A stretch of 52,809 nucleotides of DNA from Patescibacteria group bacterium. GTDB lineage: Bacteria > Patescibacteriota > Minisyncoccia > GCA-002772825. Below the pieces are notes generated by a model. That model saw only the letters and a list, made by a program, of their open reading frames with translations, was not told where the DNA came from and searched no databases. Shown piece by piece: positions 2,779 through 36,911 of the stretch. A program made the position numbers and the translations under genes. Position 1 is the stretch's first letter; each line of letters opens with the position of its first letter. The stretch covers positions 1-52,809 of the forward strand of contig JANLHB010000024.1 in NCBI GenBank assembly GCA_024654625.1. Direction: 5' to 3'.

Positions 2779-2850
2779 GCTCTCATAGTTCAAAGGATAG
2801 AACGCGAGCTTGCGGAGCTCGTAATAGAGGTTCGATTCCTCTTGAGAGCA
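2779..2850 (+). tRNA. tRNA-Arg (anticodon GCG)
   Basis: A cloverleaf of 72 nt: acceptor GCTCTCA pairs with TGAGAGC, the D stem is GTTC/GAAC, the anticodon stem is CGAGC/GCTCG with loop TTGCGGA, and the T arm is AGAGG/CCTCT with loop TTCGATT. The anticodon GCG reads CGC and CGU; most bacteria use ACG (inosine) for this box, so this is a less common choice. CCA is not encoded. The 3' half is duplicated just downstream. Confidence 0.92.
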
Positions 2851-2874
2851 AAGGCAATGGCGGTCTGGAAATTA

Positions 2875-2966
2875 GCGAGCTTGCGGAGCTCGTAATAGAG
2901 GTTCGTCGTGTACTACTGAAGAGTACACGACGCCCAGCACCCTTTAGTGGTGCTTGGGCGATTCCT
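2875..2966 (+). pseudogene. tRNA-Arg 3'-half duplicate with T-loop insert
   Basis: Positions 2875-2905 are identical over 31 nt to 2804-2834 of tRNA-Arg, from the base before the anticodon stem into the T loop (TTCG). The copy is then interrupted by about 53 bp of hairpins and resumes as CGATTCCTC, the rest of the T loop and T stem. CG occurs on both sides of the insert, which would fit a 2-bp target duplication. There is no D arm or acceptor stem, so it cannot be a working tRNA. Confidence 0.75.
2904..2958. repeat. Two-hairpin palindromic element (family E), copy 1
   Basis: Hairpin 1 is a perfect 11-bp stem (CGTCGTGTACT at 2904-2914 with AGTACACGACG at 2922-2932) around the loop ACTGAAG. 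Hairpin 2 is a 9-bp stem (CCCAGCACC with GGTGCTTGGG, one bulged T, 2933-2958). A copy differing at one base over about 60 bp is at 52744-52803, also in a tRNA T loop. Confidence 0.8.
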
Positions 2967-3003
2967 CGCGAGGACATATGAATGGAATTAAAGAGGTAAA
3001 TCT

Positions 3004-3075
3004 ATGGCAAAAAAAGAGTCGCTCAATGTTTCAGTCGCCGCAGGAGTGGCATTGTTTGAATTAATACGAGATTGA
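3004..3075 (+). pseudogene. Short ORF, probable 5' remnant of a gene
   Basis: An ATG at 3004 preceded by AGAGG at SD distance opens a 23-residue frame starting MAKKESLNVSVAAGVALFEL and ending at TGA 3073-3075. The hydrophobic end is cut off and runs into the 3' end of the opposite-strand gene at 3061. A good ribosome site with such a short frame suggests the start of a gene truncated by recombination next to the tRNA fragments. A real microprotein cannot be excluded. Confidence 0.35.
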
Positions 3076-3945
3076 TTTGATAAGACTACCTGACTTGTCT
3101 AAAAGTTCGATTGTTTCTCTTTTCTCTTTCCATAATTCATCATTTCGGCCTAAAAATATCCTCCATTCATTCTTATAAAAATCAGCGTCATCTCTGTGAG
3201 TATCTACGCATGACTTATAATTTATCTTCGTGCTTACATATTCCTGACACTGGCTTGATAAATAAGCCGGTATAGATTTGACGATTTCACATCTAGGAAG
3301 CTTATCAATATAATCAAGACATTTATCATCAAGTCCTCCCTGACCTGACGGTAGATCTTCATCACGCGGATAAAGGCAGTCCTTAGGCAAACTTGGGCTA
3401 AAATTCTGAAACTGCTCAAGATAACCGGTGCATTTATTTAATCTAAACGAATAGCCAATAGAAGACTGACCTGTTGTGATAATAGCTTTTCCTCCCGGCT
3501 CAAGAAAGATCGGTTCTTTATTATTAACAATACCGGGCCAATACAGATAAACTCCATCTCCAATAGGCAAATCCAAGTTATACGCGCCTCTAAGCCTCAA
3601 TCCTGAGAGAAGTGCTTTATCAACACTCTTTGAAGAAAGCTTTATCTCTATATATTCTTTTTCCGGATCAGTCTCTTTAGCTTTGTATATAGATCCGAAT
3701 GATATTAGATCTGCAAGCGACTGACCCGAAAGACCAGAAGTGTCATTTGAAGGCGTTGCTCCGCTACCAATAACTTCTTTTTCGTCGGCAGGACCTGAAC
3801 TGATACCGCCGATAGAGCCGGGCGGTATTACAAAAGGACTTTTTGCCGTCTCTCTATTTAGTCCGCCTGTATAATACCAGACGAAACCAAGTCCTATCAA
3901 AAACAAAATTAAAAATATTAAATCTTTTTTCGCATCATCTCCCAT
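3061..3945 (-). CDS. Conserved CPR-type secreted/anchored protein, lamin-tail-like
   Basis: A 294-residue protein with one membrane helix near the N-terminus (about residues 8-25, LIFLILFLIGLGFVWYY), a Gly/Ser/Pro-rich linker, and an extracytoplasmic domain. The strand pattern EYIEIKLSS ... LSGLRLRG and the ending LLDKSGSLIKSISY resemble lamin-tail (LTD) domains, which bind surfaces or nucleic acids; this is a weak similarity. Six or more cysteines in the C-terminal third (CTGYLEQF, CLYP, CLDY, CEIV, CQEY, CVDT) could form disulfides outside the cell. A TATAGT box lies 6 nt before the ATG, so the mRNA is probably leaderless. Function unknown. Confidence 0.75.
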   Translation of the reverse strand: MGDDAKKDLIFLILFLIGLGFVWYYTGGLNRETAKSPFVIPPGSIGGISSGPADEKEVIGSGATPSNDTSGLSGQSLADLISFGSIYKAKETDPEKEYIEIKLSSKSVDKALLSGLRLRGAYNLDLPIGDGVYLYWPGIVNNKEPIFLEPGGKAIITTGQSSIGYSFRLNKCTGYLEQFQNFSPSLPKDCLYPRDEDLPSGQGGLDDKCLDYIDKLPRCEIVKSIPAYLSSQCQEYVSTKINYKSCVDTHRDDADFYKNEWRIFLGRNDELWKEKRETIELLDKSGSLIKSISY

Positions 3946-4020
3946 ATAAATACTATACTTGGAAACATTGATGTGAGCAAATAAAAAGTGTAATGCCTAA
4001 ATACTTATGGCGCTTTTTAA

Positions 4021-4077
4021 ATGTATATATTTTGATGCGGTCGTTACAAAATATATACATGACCTAAACTGAGTTTT
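4021..4077. repeat. 57-bp direct repeat, copy 1, left of mosaic gene
   Basis: Identical to 5316-5372 except for one base. Each copy contains a 13-bp inverted repeat (TGTATATATTTTG and CAAAATATATACA) around the loop ATGCGGTCGTTA (AAGCGGTCGTTA in copy 2), followed by TGACCTAAACTGAGTTTT. Weaker similarity continues to about 4125, including a small hairpin AACCGA/TCGGTT (4100-4120) followed by TTAA. The spacer 3946-4265 otherwise holds only hairpins and no gene. Confidence 0.85.
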
Positions 4078-4136
4078 GAGTTTACAAAAAACCAAAAACA
4101 ACCGACTTCGGATATCGGTTTTAATCCAAATAAAAA

Positions 4137-4193
4137 GAGCCTCCGGCAAATAGTTCCAGCTGAATTAACAGAGGAAAATTTGCACAGAGGCTC
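4137..4193 (-). terminator. Structured 3' region of the mosaic gene
   Basis: Nested inverted repeats GAGCCTC/GAGGCTC (4137-4143, 4187-4193) and GCAAAT/ATTTGC (4146-4151, 4178-4183) lie downstream of the minus-strand gene ending at 4266. They could act as a terminator or RNA-stabilising structure. An A run at 4132-4136 would give the U tract on the minus-strand transcript. Confidence 0.45.
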
Positions 4194-4225
4194 AAGCCTG
4201 CCTGCTGCAGAAAGGGATCCAAGAG

Positions 4226-4245
4226 CTGAAAAACATGTTTTTCAG
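4226..4245. repeat. Perfect 20-bp palindrome
   Basis: CTGAAAAACATGTTTTTCAG lies 21 nt after the stop of the 258-residue gene and is framed by GAG and AGCTC. It may be part of the termination signal or a protein-binding site. Confidence 0.55.
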
Positions 4246-4265
4246 AGCTCTCAAGGAATCAAGAC

Positions 4266-5042
4266 TCAGGACTTCCGGGCCGAGGACACACCGATGTAAC
4301 CGTAGCGGCTGTAGTCCCAATAGTAGCTGACGCTCAGACCCCCGACATCGAAGCTACCGACATTGACGCGGTCACCGTCCGAGTCGAGGTCCGAACATCT
4401 GACATAGATGTTCTCGAACAGTCGCTCGCCAGTGGCGAGGTAGTGGCCGATGATAGTGTAGGCCATCACCTGAGCCTTCGGCGTTTCGTCGTTCTTGTCG
4501 AGCGTGGCCTGCTGTTCGTCCCACGTCTTCGAAGTCGAGTCCGGCACCGGGGTCTTGCAAACCAGGCGCCAGCCGACCTCGCCCTTGTCCTTCGCAAACG
4601 CCTGCTTATTGTACCAGGCGTCGTCGTGACTGAAGAAGAGCTTACGCTCGACCTTGCCACGAATGTTGAGGATCGACATCGGAAGCACAGCAACAAGGAC
4701 GTGCGTGTCCTTACAAGACTCCAACACTTCCTCAGTGAATGGCACCTCGGACAAGGCGGTGATCTGCGCTCTCGAGGGATTGACCCCGAAGTGCCTGATC
4801 GCTTCCTCGACGCCGAAGAAGTTCGCCCCCATGATCTCGCGAGCGCGAACCCACTGAGGATAAATATTTGAGAGTGTTTTGCCTCCAAGACTTTGATTTT
4901 TAGCGAAATCAGTCAGGAGAGTAAGATACGTCTCATCAAGATTAATGAGACGAGCAACATCACCAGCATCATCACCAAGCGCTCCCCAGAAACGCTGACT
5001 TGCAGCATTTAAAGTTCCCGCAGGAATTCTTTTCCAATCCAT
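4266..5042 (-). CDS. Hypothetical protein, GC-rich mosaic gene
   Basis: A 258-residue soluble protein I cannot assign. The N-terminal segment (about residues 1-60, MDWKRIPAGTLNAASQRFWG...) is AT-rich and helical; the remainder, from about residue 61 (position 4860 downwards), is encoded at roughly 60 percent GC and is beta-rich, ending in an aromatic stretch (SVSYYWDYSRYGYIGVS). No signal peptide or membrane helix is seen. A strong Shine-Dalgarno sequence AAGGAGG sits 5 nt before the ATG, unlike most core genes here. The gene lies between two 57-bp direct repeats, between mutM and the 294-residue gene, so it looks acquired. The composition break inside the frame suggests fusion of two sources. 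Confidence 0.75.
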   Translation of the reverse strand: MDWKRIPAGTLNAASQRFWGALGDDAGDVARLINLDETYLTLLTDFAKNQSLGGKTLSNIYPQWVRAREIMGANFFGVEEAIRHFGVNPSRAQITALSEVPFTEEVLESCKDTHVLVAVLPMSILNIRGKVERKLFFSHDDAWYNKQAFAKDKGEVGWRLVCKTPVPDSTSKTWDEQQATLDKNDETPKAQVMAYTIIGHYLATGERLFENIYVRCSDLDSDGDRVNVGSFDVGGLSVSYYWDYSRYGYIGVSSARKS

Positions 5043-5227
5043 GATAGCCTCCTTGCCGTTAGCCTATTTATCAAAATAAGCGACTGGCATTTAAGATTAC
5101 CCAAACCGCTCGGGCGGACGACTGCTTCACAATGAAGCAATTATTAAAGAGCTAATTACACATTGAATATGCCATATAGTCAAAACAAAATCAAGCGAAT
5201 TTCTATAACTCAACACTGTCCAACTAT

Positions 5228-5264
5228 CCAACACTGTCCAACACTCGGTGTTGGACAGTGTTGG
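5228..5264. repeat. Perfect 17-bp stem hairpin upstream of mosaic gene
   Basis: CCAACACTGTCCAACAC (5228-5244) pairs fully with GTGTTGGACAGTGTTGG (5248-5264) around the 3-nt loop TCG. An extra direct copy of CAACACTGTCCAACT lies at 5211-5225. The hairpin is about 190 nt upstream of the start of the 258-residue gene, so an operator, an attenuator or an element end are all possible. No gene is seen in the spacer 5043-5433. Confidence 0.7.
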
Positions 5265-5315
5265 CAAAAGTCAATAAATTGCGATAATGTCCACACACAC
5301 ATACATATTACACTA

Positions 5316-5372
5316 ATGTATATATTTTGAAGCGGTCGTTACAAAATATATACATGACCTAAACTGAGTTTT
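5316..5372. repeat. 57-bp direct repeat, copy 2, next to mutM
   Basis: Second copy of the repeat at 4021-4077 (one mismatch). Diverged similarity continues to about 5432 (GTTTACA, TATCGG, GGTTTTAATC), which is exactly at the stop codon of mutM at 5434. The distance between copies is 1295 bp and the unit contains just one gene. Confidence 0.85.
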
Positions 5373-5433
5373 ATGTTTACAGATGTTTACAAAAAATCAA
5401 GAATCGACGTCGGGTATCGGCTTCGGTTTTAAT

Positions 5434-6264
5434 CTATTTCTGGCAAACGGGGCAGAAACAAGCCGAGCGTCCGCCAATTTTTATCCTTTTTATTATTCCT
5501 CTACATCCCCTCTTCAGGCACGGCTCCCCTTCTCGATGATACACCTTATGGTGGTCTTGATAGTGGCCTTTCTCACCGTAAATATTCCTATAATCAGACA
5601 TTGAGTCACCGCCGAGCTTTATCGCTTTTTTCAATACCAAGCGCATATTTTTATAAATCTTTTTAAATTCATTCTCTTTAATACTGGAAATTTTTCTCAA
5701 GGGGTGAATACCGGAATACCACAAAATTTCATCCGAATAGATATTTCCTATGCCGGCAACGATATCCTGATCCATCAAAATTTGCTTTATCTTCCCGTTA
5801 GGTCTCTTTTTCAGAATATCTTTAAATTTCTTTAATGATAAATCTTTTTCCAGAGCGTCACGGCCTATCTTATTTATATCAGAAAGGTCGGCTAATCTGC
5901 TTGTCGGCCAAATCAAAACCTTGGCGAATTTACGAAGATCAGAAAGGGTCAATTGTTTTCCATTAGATAAATTTAATACAAGGTGGTTAAACTTAACCCC
6001 CAAACCATCACCGTAAAAAAGCGAGCCGGTCATCTTCATATGGATAAGGAGCGTTTTATCATCCGATAAATAAATCAAAATATTTTTCCCTCTTCTCTCT
6101 ACTTTTATAATCTTATGCCCGATTAATTCTTTCTTAAAACTACTAAAAGATTTTGGAAACTTAATCATTTTTTTCCAGTCAGACCAGACACCCCGAATCT
6201 TAAGGCCGGGTAAAAATTCATTAAGTCCGGAAACTGTTGTTTGAACCTCTGGTAATTCAGGCAT
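5434..6264 (-). CDS. mutM: Formamidopyrimidine-DNA glycosylase
   Basis: A 276-residue base-excision repair enzyme that removes oxidised purines such as 8-oxoguanine and cleaves the abasic strand. The mature N-terminus PELPEV supplies the catalytic proline and glutamate. A helix-two-turn-helix region (GIGNIYSDEILW) and a C-terminal zinc finger (CLKRGC ... CPVCQ) are both intact, and the length is typical. The start is fixed by the required Met-Pro-Glu. It diverges from the amidase gene with only 19 nt between the two start codons. A direct repeat of the adjacent accessory unit abuts its stop codon. Confidence 0.95.
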   Translation of the reverse strand: MPELPEVQTTVSGLNEFLPGLKIRGVWSDWKKMIKFPKSFSSFKKELIGHKIIKVERRGKNILIYLSDDKTLLIHMKMTGSLFYGDGLGVKFNHLVLNLSNGKQLTLSDLRKFAKVLIWPTSRLADLSDINKIGRDALEKDLSLKKFKDILKKRPNGKIKQILMDQDIVAGIGNIYSDEILWYSGIHPLRKISSIKENEFKKIYKNMRLVLKKAIKLGGDSMSDYRNIYGEKGHYQDHHKVYHREGEPCLKRGCRGIIKRIKIGGRSACFCPVCQK

Positions 6265-8825: not shown

Positions 8826-9416
8826 CTAACGGGGTTTATTTGAACCTAAGTTTTTTAAAACTTCTTTTATCCTATTATTAGTACCGGCAACATCGTCCGG
8901 AATTTGTTTTAACGCTTCACGAGATTCATTTAACGAGTAGCCTAAAGATTGAAGGGCATCTATCACGTCTTGATCGTCTTTAAGCATACCGCCGATTGGT
9001 GTATAAATAGACCCGCCGAGTTTATCTTTAAGCTCTAAAACTATCTTATCGGCAATCTTTTTTCCTATACCTGACACCTTGGTAAGATAAGTGGTATCAC
9101 CTGAAGCAATAGCCTGACGCAAAGTATCAATCGGCGCCACAGAAAGCACACCCATCGCCCCTTTCGGACCAATACCAGATATCCCTATAAGCATCTCAAA
9201 AAACTTAAGCTCAGGATAAGCGGCAAACCCGTAAAGCTCCATAATGTTCTCTCTTACATATAAATGTGTCCAGAAAGACACATTTTCGTTACTATCCTTA
9301 GGAAGCCTTCTTAAAGTATCAAGTGTGGTATATACATGGTAACCAACACCGCTTACATCTAAAACTGCAAATTTTTCACCTTTTAAGATAATTTTTCCGG
9401 TTATGTGGGAAATCAT
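8826..9416 (-). CDS. ruvA: Holliday junction branch migration protein RuvA
   Basis: About 196 residues. RuvA tetramers hold the Holliday junction while RuvB drives branch migration. The N-terminal OB fold (MISHITGKIILKG), the two helix-hairpin-helix motifs (GISGIGPKGAM, VSGIGKKIAD) and the small C-terminal UBA-like domain (DVIDALQSLGYSLNESREAL) are all present. An ATG three codons upstream (9425) is possible, but TAAAAT lies 7 nt before the ATG at 9416 and RuvA proteins normally begin Met-Ile, so I prefer 9416. ruvB and ruvC are elsewhere in this window, not in one operon. Confidence 0.93.
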   Translation of the reverse strand: MISHITGKIILKGEKFAVLDVSGVGYHVYTTLDTLRRLPKDSNENVSFWTHLYVRENIMELYGFAAYPELKFFEMLIGISGIGPKGAMGVLSVAPIDTLRQAIASGDTTYLTKVSGIGKKIADKIVLELKDKLGGSIYTPIGGMLKDDQDVIDALQSLGYSLNESREALKQIPDDVAGTNNRIKEVLKNLGSNKPR

Positions 9417-34167: not shown

Positions 34168-34977
34168 TTAAAGTCCGGTGCAGTCCGGATTTTTTAATAA
34201 ACAAAGCCAATTATCCACGGATAATCTCTCTGCCCTGGCATCTATCGGTATTCCGCATTTTAACAAGCACGCGGTGTTTATTAAGTTTAGATTATTTTTT
34301 AATAGTTTTCTTTTACTTGAGAAACCTTTTTTTACGATTTCAAAAAATTTTTTCTCATCTATTGTTTCTTGAGGCGAGGTAAAATTCTTTTTTGAAATAT
34401 CACTTATTAGAATAATAGCCGAATCAACTTTAGGCTTTGGATTGAAAAACATTGCCGGAACTTTTTTTATAAATTTCGGCGTTCCATAGACTTTTACGCT
34501 AATGGACAAAATACTTTCTTTCCGTTGTCCTTTATGTTCTTTGGTTGTTATTCTATCGGACACTTCTTTTTGGACTAAAAGGACAATTTTTTCAGGTTGA
34601 ACTCTTGTTTCTAAGAAGGTTTTTAATAATCGCGATGTTATATAGTATGGGATATTAGCTACAATTTTATAAGATTTATCCTTTAATATATAAGGTTTTG
34701 GGTCAAAATCTAATGCATCGCCATATATTAACTCAAGTTTTTTATTTATTATTTCTTTTTTAAATTTGTCCTTTAGAAAGTTTATTAATTCCTTGTCCTT
34801 TTCAATAGCAATAACCCTGCCGGCATATTTAAGTAGCTCTTCCGTTAAGACCCCTTTTCCTGGTCCAACCTCAAGGACAGTGTCCTTTTGATTTACTTCG
34901 GCGGATTTTACAATCAATGAGACGATGCTTTTTGAAGTAAGGAAATTTTGACCCAGTCTTTTTTTTGCTTTTATCAT
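34168..34977 (-). CDS. rsmA: 16S rRNA dimethyladenosine transferase
   Basis: A 269-residue methyltransferase (KsgA) that dimethylates two adjacent adenosines in the 3' end helix of 16S rRNA. The SAM site is VLEVGPGKGVLTEEL, the catalytic motif IV is NIPYYI, and the start KAKKRLGQNFL is typical. Convergent with jag. Its stop-distal end is 5 nt from the helicase gene on the same strand. Confidence 0.95.
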   Translation of the reverse strand: MIKAKKRLGQNFLTSKSIVSLIVKSAEVNQKDTVLEVGPGKGVLTEELLKYAGRVIAIEKDKELINFLKDKFKKEIINKKLELIYGDALDFDPKPYILKDKSYKIVANIPYYITSRLLKTFLETRVQPEKIVLLVQKEVSDRITTKEHKGQRKESILSISVKVYGTPKFIKKVPAMFFNPKPKVDSAIILISDISKKNFTSPQETIDEKKFFEIVKKGFSSKRKLLKNNLNLINTACLLKCGIPIDARAERLSVDNWLCLLKNPDCTGL

Positions 34978-34982
34978 ATTTA

Positions 34983-36911
34983 TTAAAATTCAATTGTTGG
35001 CAAGTCTTCACCGGCATCATCATTGTTATGGAAAATAATGAGGTGATCCGGAAGCTCGCTTAAAAATGATGAAGGGTAATTAACTTGCTTTGACCCGAAG
35101 ATAGTCCGCATATCGGCAAAAGATAAATAGAGTTTTTCTTTTGCGCGGGTTAATGCTACATAAAAAAGCCTCCTCTCTTCTTCCTCGTGTTCCTCCCCCT
35201 TACCGCCTAAATCTTGATGAGGGAAAAGACCTTCTTCGAGTCCGGTGATAAATACATATTTAAATTCAAGTCCTTTGGCTGAGTGCACTGTCATAAGCCT
35301 TACCGCTTTATTTTTCTCTTGTATTGAATCTTGGTCTGATACAAGAGACGCTTCCGTTAAGAGCTTCTCAATACCTAGGGGCGCTTCAAAGTCATCGTAT
35401 TTTAATCCTAATGTTACCAATTCTCTTATATTTTCCAATCTTTCTTGATCATCTTCACTTCCGCTTTTTAAAAACTCCTCCATTCCGGTTGCTTTTATAA
35501 CATTTTTTATCACCAGTGACGGCTTTTCTGTGAGAATGGATTTTTTTATTGATGTTAATAATTTATTGAAATCATTAACTTTCTCCTCTGTTTTTTGCGG
35601 AAGTTCATTCTGTTTGCCGGAGAATATCTTAAGAAGAGTCGTTTTTCCTATTCCCCTTGGCGGGATATTTATAATTCTTTTTAGCCCTTCTTGGTCGTCC
35701 GGATTTAAAGCCACTTTTATAAAAGTCAGTATATCCTTAATCTCTTTTCTTTCAAAAAAACGGACCCCTAGAATTTGATAAGGAATGCCTTTTTTAAGCA
35801 ACGCTTCCTCTAAAGAGCGTGATTGGAAATTAGCTCTATAAAGTATGGCAATACCTGAAGCCTCGCTTTTGTTTTTAGAAATAATTTTTTCTATCTCTTC
35901 TGCTATAAAAAGAGCTTCTTTTTCTTCATTTTCCGCCTCAAAGAGCGTTATTTTTTCGCCTTCTTTGTTTTTGGTAAACATATTTTTGTCTATGCGCAGT
36001 TTATTTTTCTTTATTACCTTATCTGCGGCAAAGAGAATATTTTTAGTAGAGCGATAATTTTCTTCAAGAAGCACAAGTTTAACATCAGGGTAATCTTTTT
36101 CAAAATTAAGGATATTTTTAAAGTCCGCCCCTCTCCAGCCATAAATTGATTGATCGCTGTCGCCTACCCCGCAAATGTTTTTATGCTCTTTTGAAAGAAG
36201 TTTTGTAAGCGTATACTGGCTTTTATTTGTATCTTGGTACTCGTCTATGTGGATATATTTCCACAAGGATTGATAATATTTTAATATTTCAGGATTTTCT
36301 TGAAGAAGAATGACTGTTTTTAGGATGAGGTCGTCAAAATCAAGCGCGTTTTGTTTTTTTAAAATATTCTCATAGTTGCCCCATATTATGGCGAGCATTT
36401 TAGGGAAGTATTCATCGCCTGCTTCTTCAAGATAAGTTTCGTAGTCCGTCAATTCACCTTTTTGTCTTGAAATTGTATTTTGAATTCGTCTTGGGTCAAA
36501 TTGTTTTATATCAAGATTAGCCTCTTTTATCGCCGACTTAACGGCTTTTAAAGAATCTTCTTTGTCTAAGATAGAGAAATATCGCGTTATGCCAATGGCT
36601 TTTGAATTTTCTTTTATAATATGGACACCAAGCGAATGAAAAGTGCTTACAAAAGGTATGCTATCTTGCAGCAGGTGCGGGGCGTCTTTCTTTATTAGGT
36701 CAATAATCCGCTCTTTCATTTCCTTGGCTGCTTTATTGGTGAAAGTTATAGCAAGAATATTTTTTGGCTCCACTCCTTCTTTTACAAGGTTAAAAATCCT
36801 ATGAGCTATAGTTTTAGTTTTGCCGGCTCCGGCTCCGGCTATTATTAAAAGAGGGCCTTCCTTATGCAGGGCGGCTGCCTCTTGAGATTTATTTAATTCA
36901 GACGAACTCAT
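34983..36911 (-). CDS. pcrA: UvrD/PcrA-type DNA helicase
   Basis: A 642-residue superfamily 1A 3'-5' helicase. Motifs in order: Q/I LNKSQEAAAL and GAGAGKTKT, II HIDEYQDTN, III GVGDSDQSIYGWRGAD, IV LEENYRSTKN, V VHSAKGLEFKYVF, VI RRLFYVALTRAKEKL. It stops soon after motif VI, about 90 residues shorter than Bacillus PcrA, so the C-terminal RNA-polymerase-interacting tail is absent. TATTAT lies 6 nt before the ATG. Confidence 0.94.
   Translation of the reverse strand: MSSSELNKSQEAAALHKEGPLLIIAGAGAGKTKTIAHRIFNLVKEGVEPKNILAITFTNKAAKEMKERIIDLIKKDAPHLLQDSIPFVSTFHSLGVHIIKENSKAIGITRYFSILDKEDSLKAVKSAIKEANLDIKQFDPRRIQNTISRQKGELTDYETYLEEAGDEYFPKMLAIIWGNYENILKKQNALDFDDLILKTVILLQENPEILKYYQSLWKYIHIDEYQDTNKSQYTLTKLLSKEHKNICGVGDSDQSIYGWRGADFKNILNFEKDYPDVKLVLLEENYRSTKNILFAADKVIKKNKLRIDKNMFTKNKEGEKITLFEAENEEKEALFIAEEIEKIISKNKSEASGIAILYRANFQSRSLEEALLKKGIPYQILGVRFFERKEIKDILTFIKVALNPDDQEGLKRIINIPPRGIGKTTLLKIFSGKQNELPQKTEEKVNDFNKLLTSIKKSILTEKPSLVIKNVIKATGMEEFLKSGSEDDQERLENIRELVTLGLKYDDFEAPLGIEKLLTEASLVSDQDSIQEKNKAVRLMTVHSAKGLEFKYVFITGLEEGLFPHQDLGGKGEEHEEEERRLFYVALTRAKEKLYLSFADMRTIFGSKQVNYPSSFLSELPDHLIIFHNNDDAGEDLPTIEF

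Follow-up and report, generated by a model that had tools for sequence, protein, structure and literature searches.

A gene related to DGR targets lies between palindromes resembling the sites of putative one-gene Cas2-like elements in Patescibacteria

The window, that is, the whole stretch of 52,809 nucleotides analysed here (contig JANLHB010000024.1 of a Patescibacteria group bacterium), carries a 258-aa gene (4266..5042, minus strand, placed from the list of open reading frames and from its relatives). It is flanked on the left by a 294-aa gene (3061..3945, minus strand) and on the right by mutM (5434..6264, minus strand), both delimited from the ORF list and the comparison with a sister genome. 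The 258-aa gene had been described as a single-gene unit bracketed by 57-bp direct repeats. Two near-identical direct repeats were indeed found, each of 67 nt (4020-4086 and 5315-5381, 96% identical, with a spacing of 1295). Repeat and pattern searches, together with alignment, placed within them a 36-bp palindrome with the centre CGGTCG (4023..4058), the putative element site, and a second palindrome at 5318..5353 that is identical to the left copy at 35 of 36 positions. The inverted repeat foreseen in the core is present, its arms being of 14 bp and not of 13 bp as claimed, with 12 nt between them in the left copy. In agreement with the original prediction, the ORF list shows nothing resembling a transposase between the two repeats.

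The right repeat had also been said to abut the mutM stop. Its strong part ends at 5381, and what continues from the right palindrome up to the mutM stop (5434) is a diverged tail (5354..5433). This tail aligns with a homologous left tail (4059..4133), and the match weakens with distance from the palindrome: of the first 28 nt, 26 are identical, and then 29 of 54 alignment columns. Two other structures were found where they had been predicted. The 17-bp perfect hairpin lies upstream of the 258-aa gene (5228..5264, by repeat analysis), with a further half copy, CAACACTGTCCAAC, at 5211, and the 20-bp palindrome, CTGAAAAACATGTTTTTCAG, is read directly 3' of the gene (4226..4245). The latter appears to fall within a DGR-like 3' region, a placement that had not been foreseen. 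A terminator-like stem (GAGCCTC/GAGGCTC) with a T-run was read at 4133..4193 on the minus strand, and a similar GAGCCTC stem occurs downstream of the relatives of the 258-aa gene at two other loci (L053 and L055). Further left in the window (2783-2975), part of a tRNA-Arg gene is repeated just downstream of it, and that sequence recurs at several places in the sister genome.

In that sister genome (G001), the only other genome of the genus that was compared, mutM abuts the 294-aa gene, and neither the 258-aa gene nor the repeats lie between them. Relative to G001, the window contains an insertion of about 1.47 kb (approximately 3963..5433). The alignment places its left edge at a relic of the mutM 3' end, CTATACTTGG (3953..3962), which is identical to G001. 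Since these are the last bases of the G001 mutM, found here in the left flank, the window represents the derived state. The unit is thus flanked by an imperfect 10-bp duplication of the mutM end, the right-hand version being CTATTTCTGG at 5434-5443. The proposal of a cassette or integrative unit held in that the unit is inserted and absent from G001, and failed in that the expected intermediate, with mutM and the 294-aa gene separated by a single repeat alone, was not observed; at that position, G001 lacks any copy. A promoter or terminator conserved before many genes, the explanation that would have undone this proposal, was rejected, since G001 does not share the copies where the two genomes can be compared.

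The 258-aa gene stands out in its composition, with a G+C content of 43% in the first 66 codons and 58.5% thereafter, against 38% in the window. Its product had no significant family in Pfam, NCBIfam, PHROGs, PDB or PADLOC, and a single-sequence structure model, made as a test for a C-type lectin fold, had a mean pLDDT of 37. Relatives were present in 10 other genomes (11 of 93 searched, own included), and a tblastn of genome contigs returned no confirmed relative. Five of the relatives adjoin a second copy of their own 3' end, from which they differ mainly at that copy's adenines (13/18, 18/20, 21/22, 19/20 and 20/21 mismatches). At two of these five loci (L052 and L057), an RVT_1 reverse transcriptase and bAvd are also adjacent. 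This adenine-specific pattern between variable and template repeats indicates that the relatives of the 258-aa gene are DGR targets, as DGRs are characterized in their description (PMC8144416). Three relatives lie close together in one genome (G060, L056 5142-11334), with a mutual DNA identity of 73-76%. In two others, relatives are also bracketed by dispersed palindromic repeats (L051 5231-7572 in G087; L054 6923-9487 in G038), which are unrelated in sequence, GGGGTCAGTCACC-like and AAAAAGGTGTCAGGTACC-like, respectively, and are perhaps REPs.

Compared with the template repeats of the relatives, the window gene has changes at 13-18 of their 30-32 adenines and at 24-40 of the 88-90 remaining bases, and the aligned segment (4266..4392, minus strand) is its presumed variable repeat. 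Unlike the DGRs of that description, the window genome (G000, 100% complete, 47 contigs) gave no RVT_1 match at E<=1 and no template repeat or second copy of the gene's 3' end, and the gene lies alone between the palindromes of what seems to be another system. Therefore, the 258-aa gene reads as an orphan relative of DGR target proteins.

The original prediction had suggested a search for the repeat elsewhere. The 36-bp core pattern had nine matches in the 831-kb window genome and none when reversed as a control, which ruled out a chance repeat. Two of the nine sites bracket the DGR-type gene of the window, two (C5:87333 and C5:87962) stand on either side of a 191-aa gene whose product is PaaX/Cas2-like, with a winged helix and a Cas2-like domain, and five are located elsewhere, among them copies on contigs C35 and C16. 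The window sites are identical to the upstream site of this Cas2-like gene at 30/36 and 29/36 positions, against a median of 15/36 (95th percentile, 22) between sites taken from different elements. In G001 there are two copies of the core, and both bracket the orthologous Cas2-like gene. Thus, by sequence, the window repeat appears to be the cognate palindrome of a Cas2-like gene located elsewhere in the genome, a relationship that had not been foreseen.

Of the remaining sites, two more could be compared with G001, which lacks both. One of them (C5:63927; L010 9928-9963) is inside about 1 kb absent from G001 (L010 9216-10225). For the other (C5:60134), no counterpart was seen in the 65 bp of G001 contig that remain beside the homologous end. 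The approximately 1-kb segment contains a 118-aa ORF (49% G+C) without a Pfam family, and includes at 9273 a second CGGTCG-centred palindrome with closer arms; no Rfam match was obtained for L010. Two more Cas2-like genes exist in the window genome, one (L099, C5:35413) with its own palindrome pair (33/36) and the other (L100, C21:17931) with only a weak pair (23/36).

These copies bear on a simple account of the window, in which a terminator-plus-palindrome segment was duplicated by plain homologous recombination or tandem duplication as the DGR gene arrived from another strain, the palindromes being passive. The homology that runs past the palindrome as a decaying tail would fit this account, as would the mutM end at the right junction, which differs from the relic at the left. 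Nevertheless, the Cas2-like gene is bracketed by the same palindrome, copies of the palindrome occur that have no tail, and the palindrome is much better conserved than the tail, so we regard this account as improbable.

The gene was found in 30 of 55 genomes searched (own included), with up to 13 copies in each. Species genomes scanned with a profile gave 469 stretches, of which 412 were confirmed as relatives of the Cas2-like protein, and 80 loci were kept; the records that name a group point to Patescibacteria lineages, and several say just "bacterium". Bracketing by near-identical repeats within 300 bp was assessed in 77 of the 80 loci, L215, L230 and L232 being too near contig ends. At E<=1e-4, brackets were found for 70 of the 77 Cas2-like genes and for 1 of the 212 remaining ORFs in these loci; at E<=1e-5, these numbers were 65/77 and 0/212. 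The single bracketed control ORF borders the L206 element and shares its palindrome. In an earlier and partly overlapping set (33 of 37 loci tested, nine of them being the same DNA as in the larger set), 23 of the 33 genes were bracketed versus 2 of 91 control ORFs, both of which share a third copy of a neighbouring palindrome. In that set L061 was counted as a miss because the ORF call ran over its site, its palindromes being identical at 35/35 positions.

The brackets are pairs of 36-38 bp palindromes in 72 of 77 loci. They have an invariant C at position -3 and G at +3, and in most cases the centre is CGRYCG or CTATAG. The arms are conserved at 11-18 from the centre and identity drops to background beyond 19, giving a sharp edge at about +-19; in this comparison the own pairs had been preselected for high identity, which favours them, a bias from which the 77-locus bracketing control is free. 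The sequence of the palindrome is specific to each element, and paralogues in the same genome mostly differ (STC_102 and G012). The upstream site lies at a median distance of 51 bp from the gene, and in 21 of 71 cases the downstream palindrome precedes a convergent gene. Asymmetric centres were direct in 21 elements, inverted in 11 and otherwise arranged in 2. Extra sites near the element were not commoner than in other loci (4 versus a mean of 4.3). Viral contigs yielded one relative (L267), at which no palindrome pair was found.

The Cas2-like protein has about 190 aa and combines a winged helix, which matches PadR/MarR folds, with a Cas2-like domain. In a structure search, the match to PaaX (E 1.4e-5) extended through most of the chain, and those to Cas2 entries covered part of it. 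Among 46 sequences compared, all match PaaX_M and 43 match the cas2 model (E<=0.001). D113, the aspartate of an FD(I/V) motif, is invariant in the 46 sequences, and an aspartate of this type, after the first strand of the domain, is what we take to be the catalytic residue of Cas2. The protein shares with PaaX (TIGR02277, PF20803; structure 8a39) the winged helix and the Cas2-like domain. It differs from it in its length (the PaaX model has 279 positions) and in scoring far below the NCBIfam cut-off: the L189 protein reached 54.5 bits against a curated value of 264.55, the 46 proteins all matching at E<=0.001. Two other differences are the FD(I/V) aspartate, kept here and missing from PaaX in the alignment, and the bracketing of the gene by palindromes. 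With Cas2 (TIGR01573), the protein has in common the fold of the C-terminal domain and the aspartate motif; in contrast to Cas2, the domain is here fused to a winged helix.

We have also compared the variation of the proteins with that of their sites. Site similarity follows protein similarity (Mantel r 0.25; reached in 0 of 999 permutations). When identity over the remainder of the protein was controlled for, the 18-residue window at residues 46-63 best predicted site similarity (partial r 0.49), and none of 300 permutations reached this value at any window; the permutation was done at the level of elements, as element pairs are not independent. In the AlphaFold model (mean pLDDT 82, with lower values up to residue 50), the winged-helix part has a helix at residues 49-62. 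Changes in this predicted recognition helix track changes in the palindrome. Such covariation makes it well supported that the protein would bind its own palindromes. The proteins of L190 and L191 are 80% identical and have unlike sites.

From these data we consider it reasonably probable that the repeats are self-specific palindromic sites of a one-gene Cas2-like element, two of them enclosing the window unit as a passenger. Like the members of the family, the window unit is enclosed by two near-identical symmetric palindromes (35/36); it would be a passenger and not a full element because the bracket holds the 258-aa gene and no winged-helix/Cas2-like gene. We propose that the protein would bind the palindromes at both ends, and that its Cas2-like domain would nick or cut near the symmetric centre. 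The cut centres would leave ends fitting any other copy of the site, so that the segment in between, here the DGR target gene, could be excised, inserted or exchanged. The site would be regenerated on both sides, with no need for further target duplication. Because every end has the same symmetric site, any segment between two sites might be movable. Mobilisation by the Cas2-like protein is what we infer from this arrangement. The tails beyond the window palindromes speak against the element reading, as simple site exchange does not explain them; with more than the palindrome shared, the last step in the window may have been homologous recombination. Other points that weigh against it are the mixed orientation of the asymmetric centres, the lack of a target duplication, the long-standing insertions at some loci and the extra sites, which do not exceed the control. 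The survey drew on 80 of the 412 relatives.

PaaX relatives are repressors, and the same observations could in part be accounted for by the main rival of the element reading, an autoregulator: a PaaX-like protein that acts through palindromic operators as repressor of its own gene and of a small regulon. The copies in the window would then be operators of neighbours, duplicated and moved by homologous recombination. The repressor PaaX as nearest solved structure, the PadR/MarR-like winged helix, the upstream site at a median of 51 bp, which suits an operator, the mixed orientation of the centres and the missing target duplication are all consistent with it. However, the second near-identical palindrome stands 3' of the stop, even before a convergent gene (21/71), where an operator for the neighbour makes little sense. 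The window genome has nine sites and its congener G001 two, with none at the comparable places, unlike a conserved regulon, and relatives show empty insertion points. We therefore consider regulation as the sole function doubtful. Even a protein that does no more than repress would leave, in the bracketing rule and the helix-to-site code, a large natural collection of regulator-operator pairs.

The empty insertion points come from comparisons between related loci. In L250, the element lies between pcrA-like and rsmA-like genes; the same genes are 33 bp apart in the window (34198-36896) and 127 bp apart in L262, which lacks the element that L250 carries there. Similarly, the element of L188 is located between genes that are 45 bp apart in G001, and L212 and L248 have it on opposite sides of a NUDIX gene. 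In a tree of 44 of the 80 loci plus two copies from the window genome, paralogues of one genome cluster (L196/L198/L199; L202/L207), and two clades that stand well apart (L194/L195 and L208/L212/L248/L254) both occupy the glyS-peptidase gap. Some of the insertions are old and stable, since besides L195 a further five loci have the element in this gap. Duplication of the target outside the palindromes was not seen, with 4-bp matches in 5 of 72 elements against a shuffled mean of 4.8. The elements differ in this from a classical insertion sequence, the window unit having the imperfect 10-bp duplication described above.

A second association with DGRs was found in L196. There, a target gene (variable repeat at 1036-1185) and bAvd are followed by a palindrome (1840), the template repeat (2071-2220) and a palindrome (2397), and then by the Cas2-like gene, a palindrome (3079) and the reverse transcriptase. 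Of the 15 mismatches, 14 are at adenines of the template repeat. The palindromes of these elements thus enclose a template repeat of a DGR at L196, and in the window genome they enclose a target gene of DGR type. These are two cases, not enough for a rule. A broader proposal, which we offer tentatively and lean slightly against, is that these elements are a new class of mobile DNA, in which a winged-helix Cas2-like nuclease without Cas1 would move itself, and any segment between its own palindromes, by cutting and rejoining at their centres. New specificities would appear as the helix and both palindromes change together, yielding paralogues without cross-talk within one genome, and Patescibacteria would use the system to shuffle DGR pieces (target genes, template repeats).

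Among known systems, the nearest analogue of the Cas2-like element is RAYT/TnpA-REP (REPtrons), which, as presented in PMC2817692 and PMC8266576, likewise joins a gene to short palindromes with further copies scattered through the genome. It is alike in layout and unlike in protein and site. The protein here is a winged-helix Cas2-like one and not a Y1 HuH transposase, and the palindromes, symmetric and 36-38 bp long, are specific to each element and have, in most, one of the two centres. According to PMC2817692, REPs usually exceed 100 per genome, and the window palindrome has nine copies. That the palindrome is itself a REP of a RAYT-type Y1 transposase could draw on its dispersal and on six weak-to-clear Y1_Tnp matches in the genome, none of which has a palindrome of the window family inside 1.5 kb on each side. 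The Cas2-like gene, by contrast, is bracketed by it, and the REP explanation seems very improbable. Less probable still is an integron-like cassette with attC-type sites: it would be suggested by a lone gene flanked on both sides by direct repeats of about 60-110 bp, and is opposed by the symmetry of the site, a palindrome that goes with a Cas2-like gene.

The family of one-gene Cas2-like elements is apparently undescribed. In the open-licence PMC literature, PaaX was not found together with Cas2, Parcubacteria or Patescibacteria, and titles and abstract openings gave no description of a palindrome-bracketed Cas2-like element; a prior description elsewhere is possible. If the element reading is true, hundreds of Patescibacteria genes matching PaaX and Cas2 models (the 412 relatives) would be one-gene elements with their own palindromic addresses. 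They would provide a natural setting for a Cas2-like protein acting on DNA outside CRISPR adaptation and, for reduced genomes, a route to move DGR parts. The DNA role and the origin of Cas2 would become testable with one small protein, one 36-bp site and many natural specificity variants.

Two additional sequence features were observed in the vicinity of the dispersed palindromes. A dispersed repeat of about 150 bp (L010 6179-6330, L009 9125-9286) adjoins two palindrome copies and has many matches in G001; several of these are at contig ends, so the repeat probably breaks assemblies. On contig C5, a 118-aa 23S_rRNA_IVP/four-helix gene lies in about 470 bp absent from G001 (L010 8167-8638) and is flanked by iterated TCAATTTTC-like sequence, a one-gene insertion of a different type.
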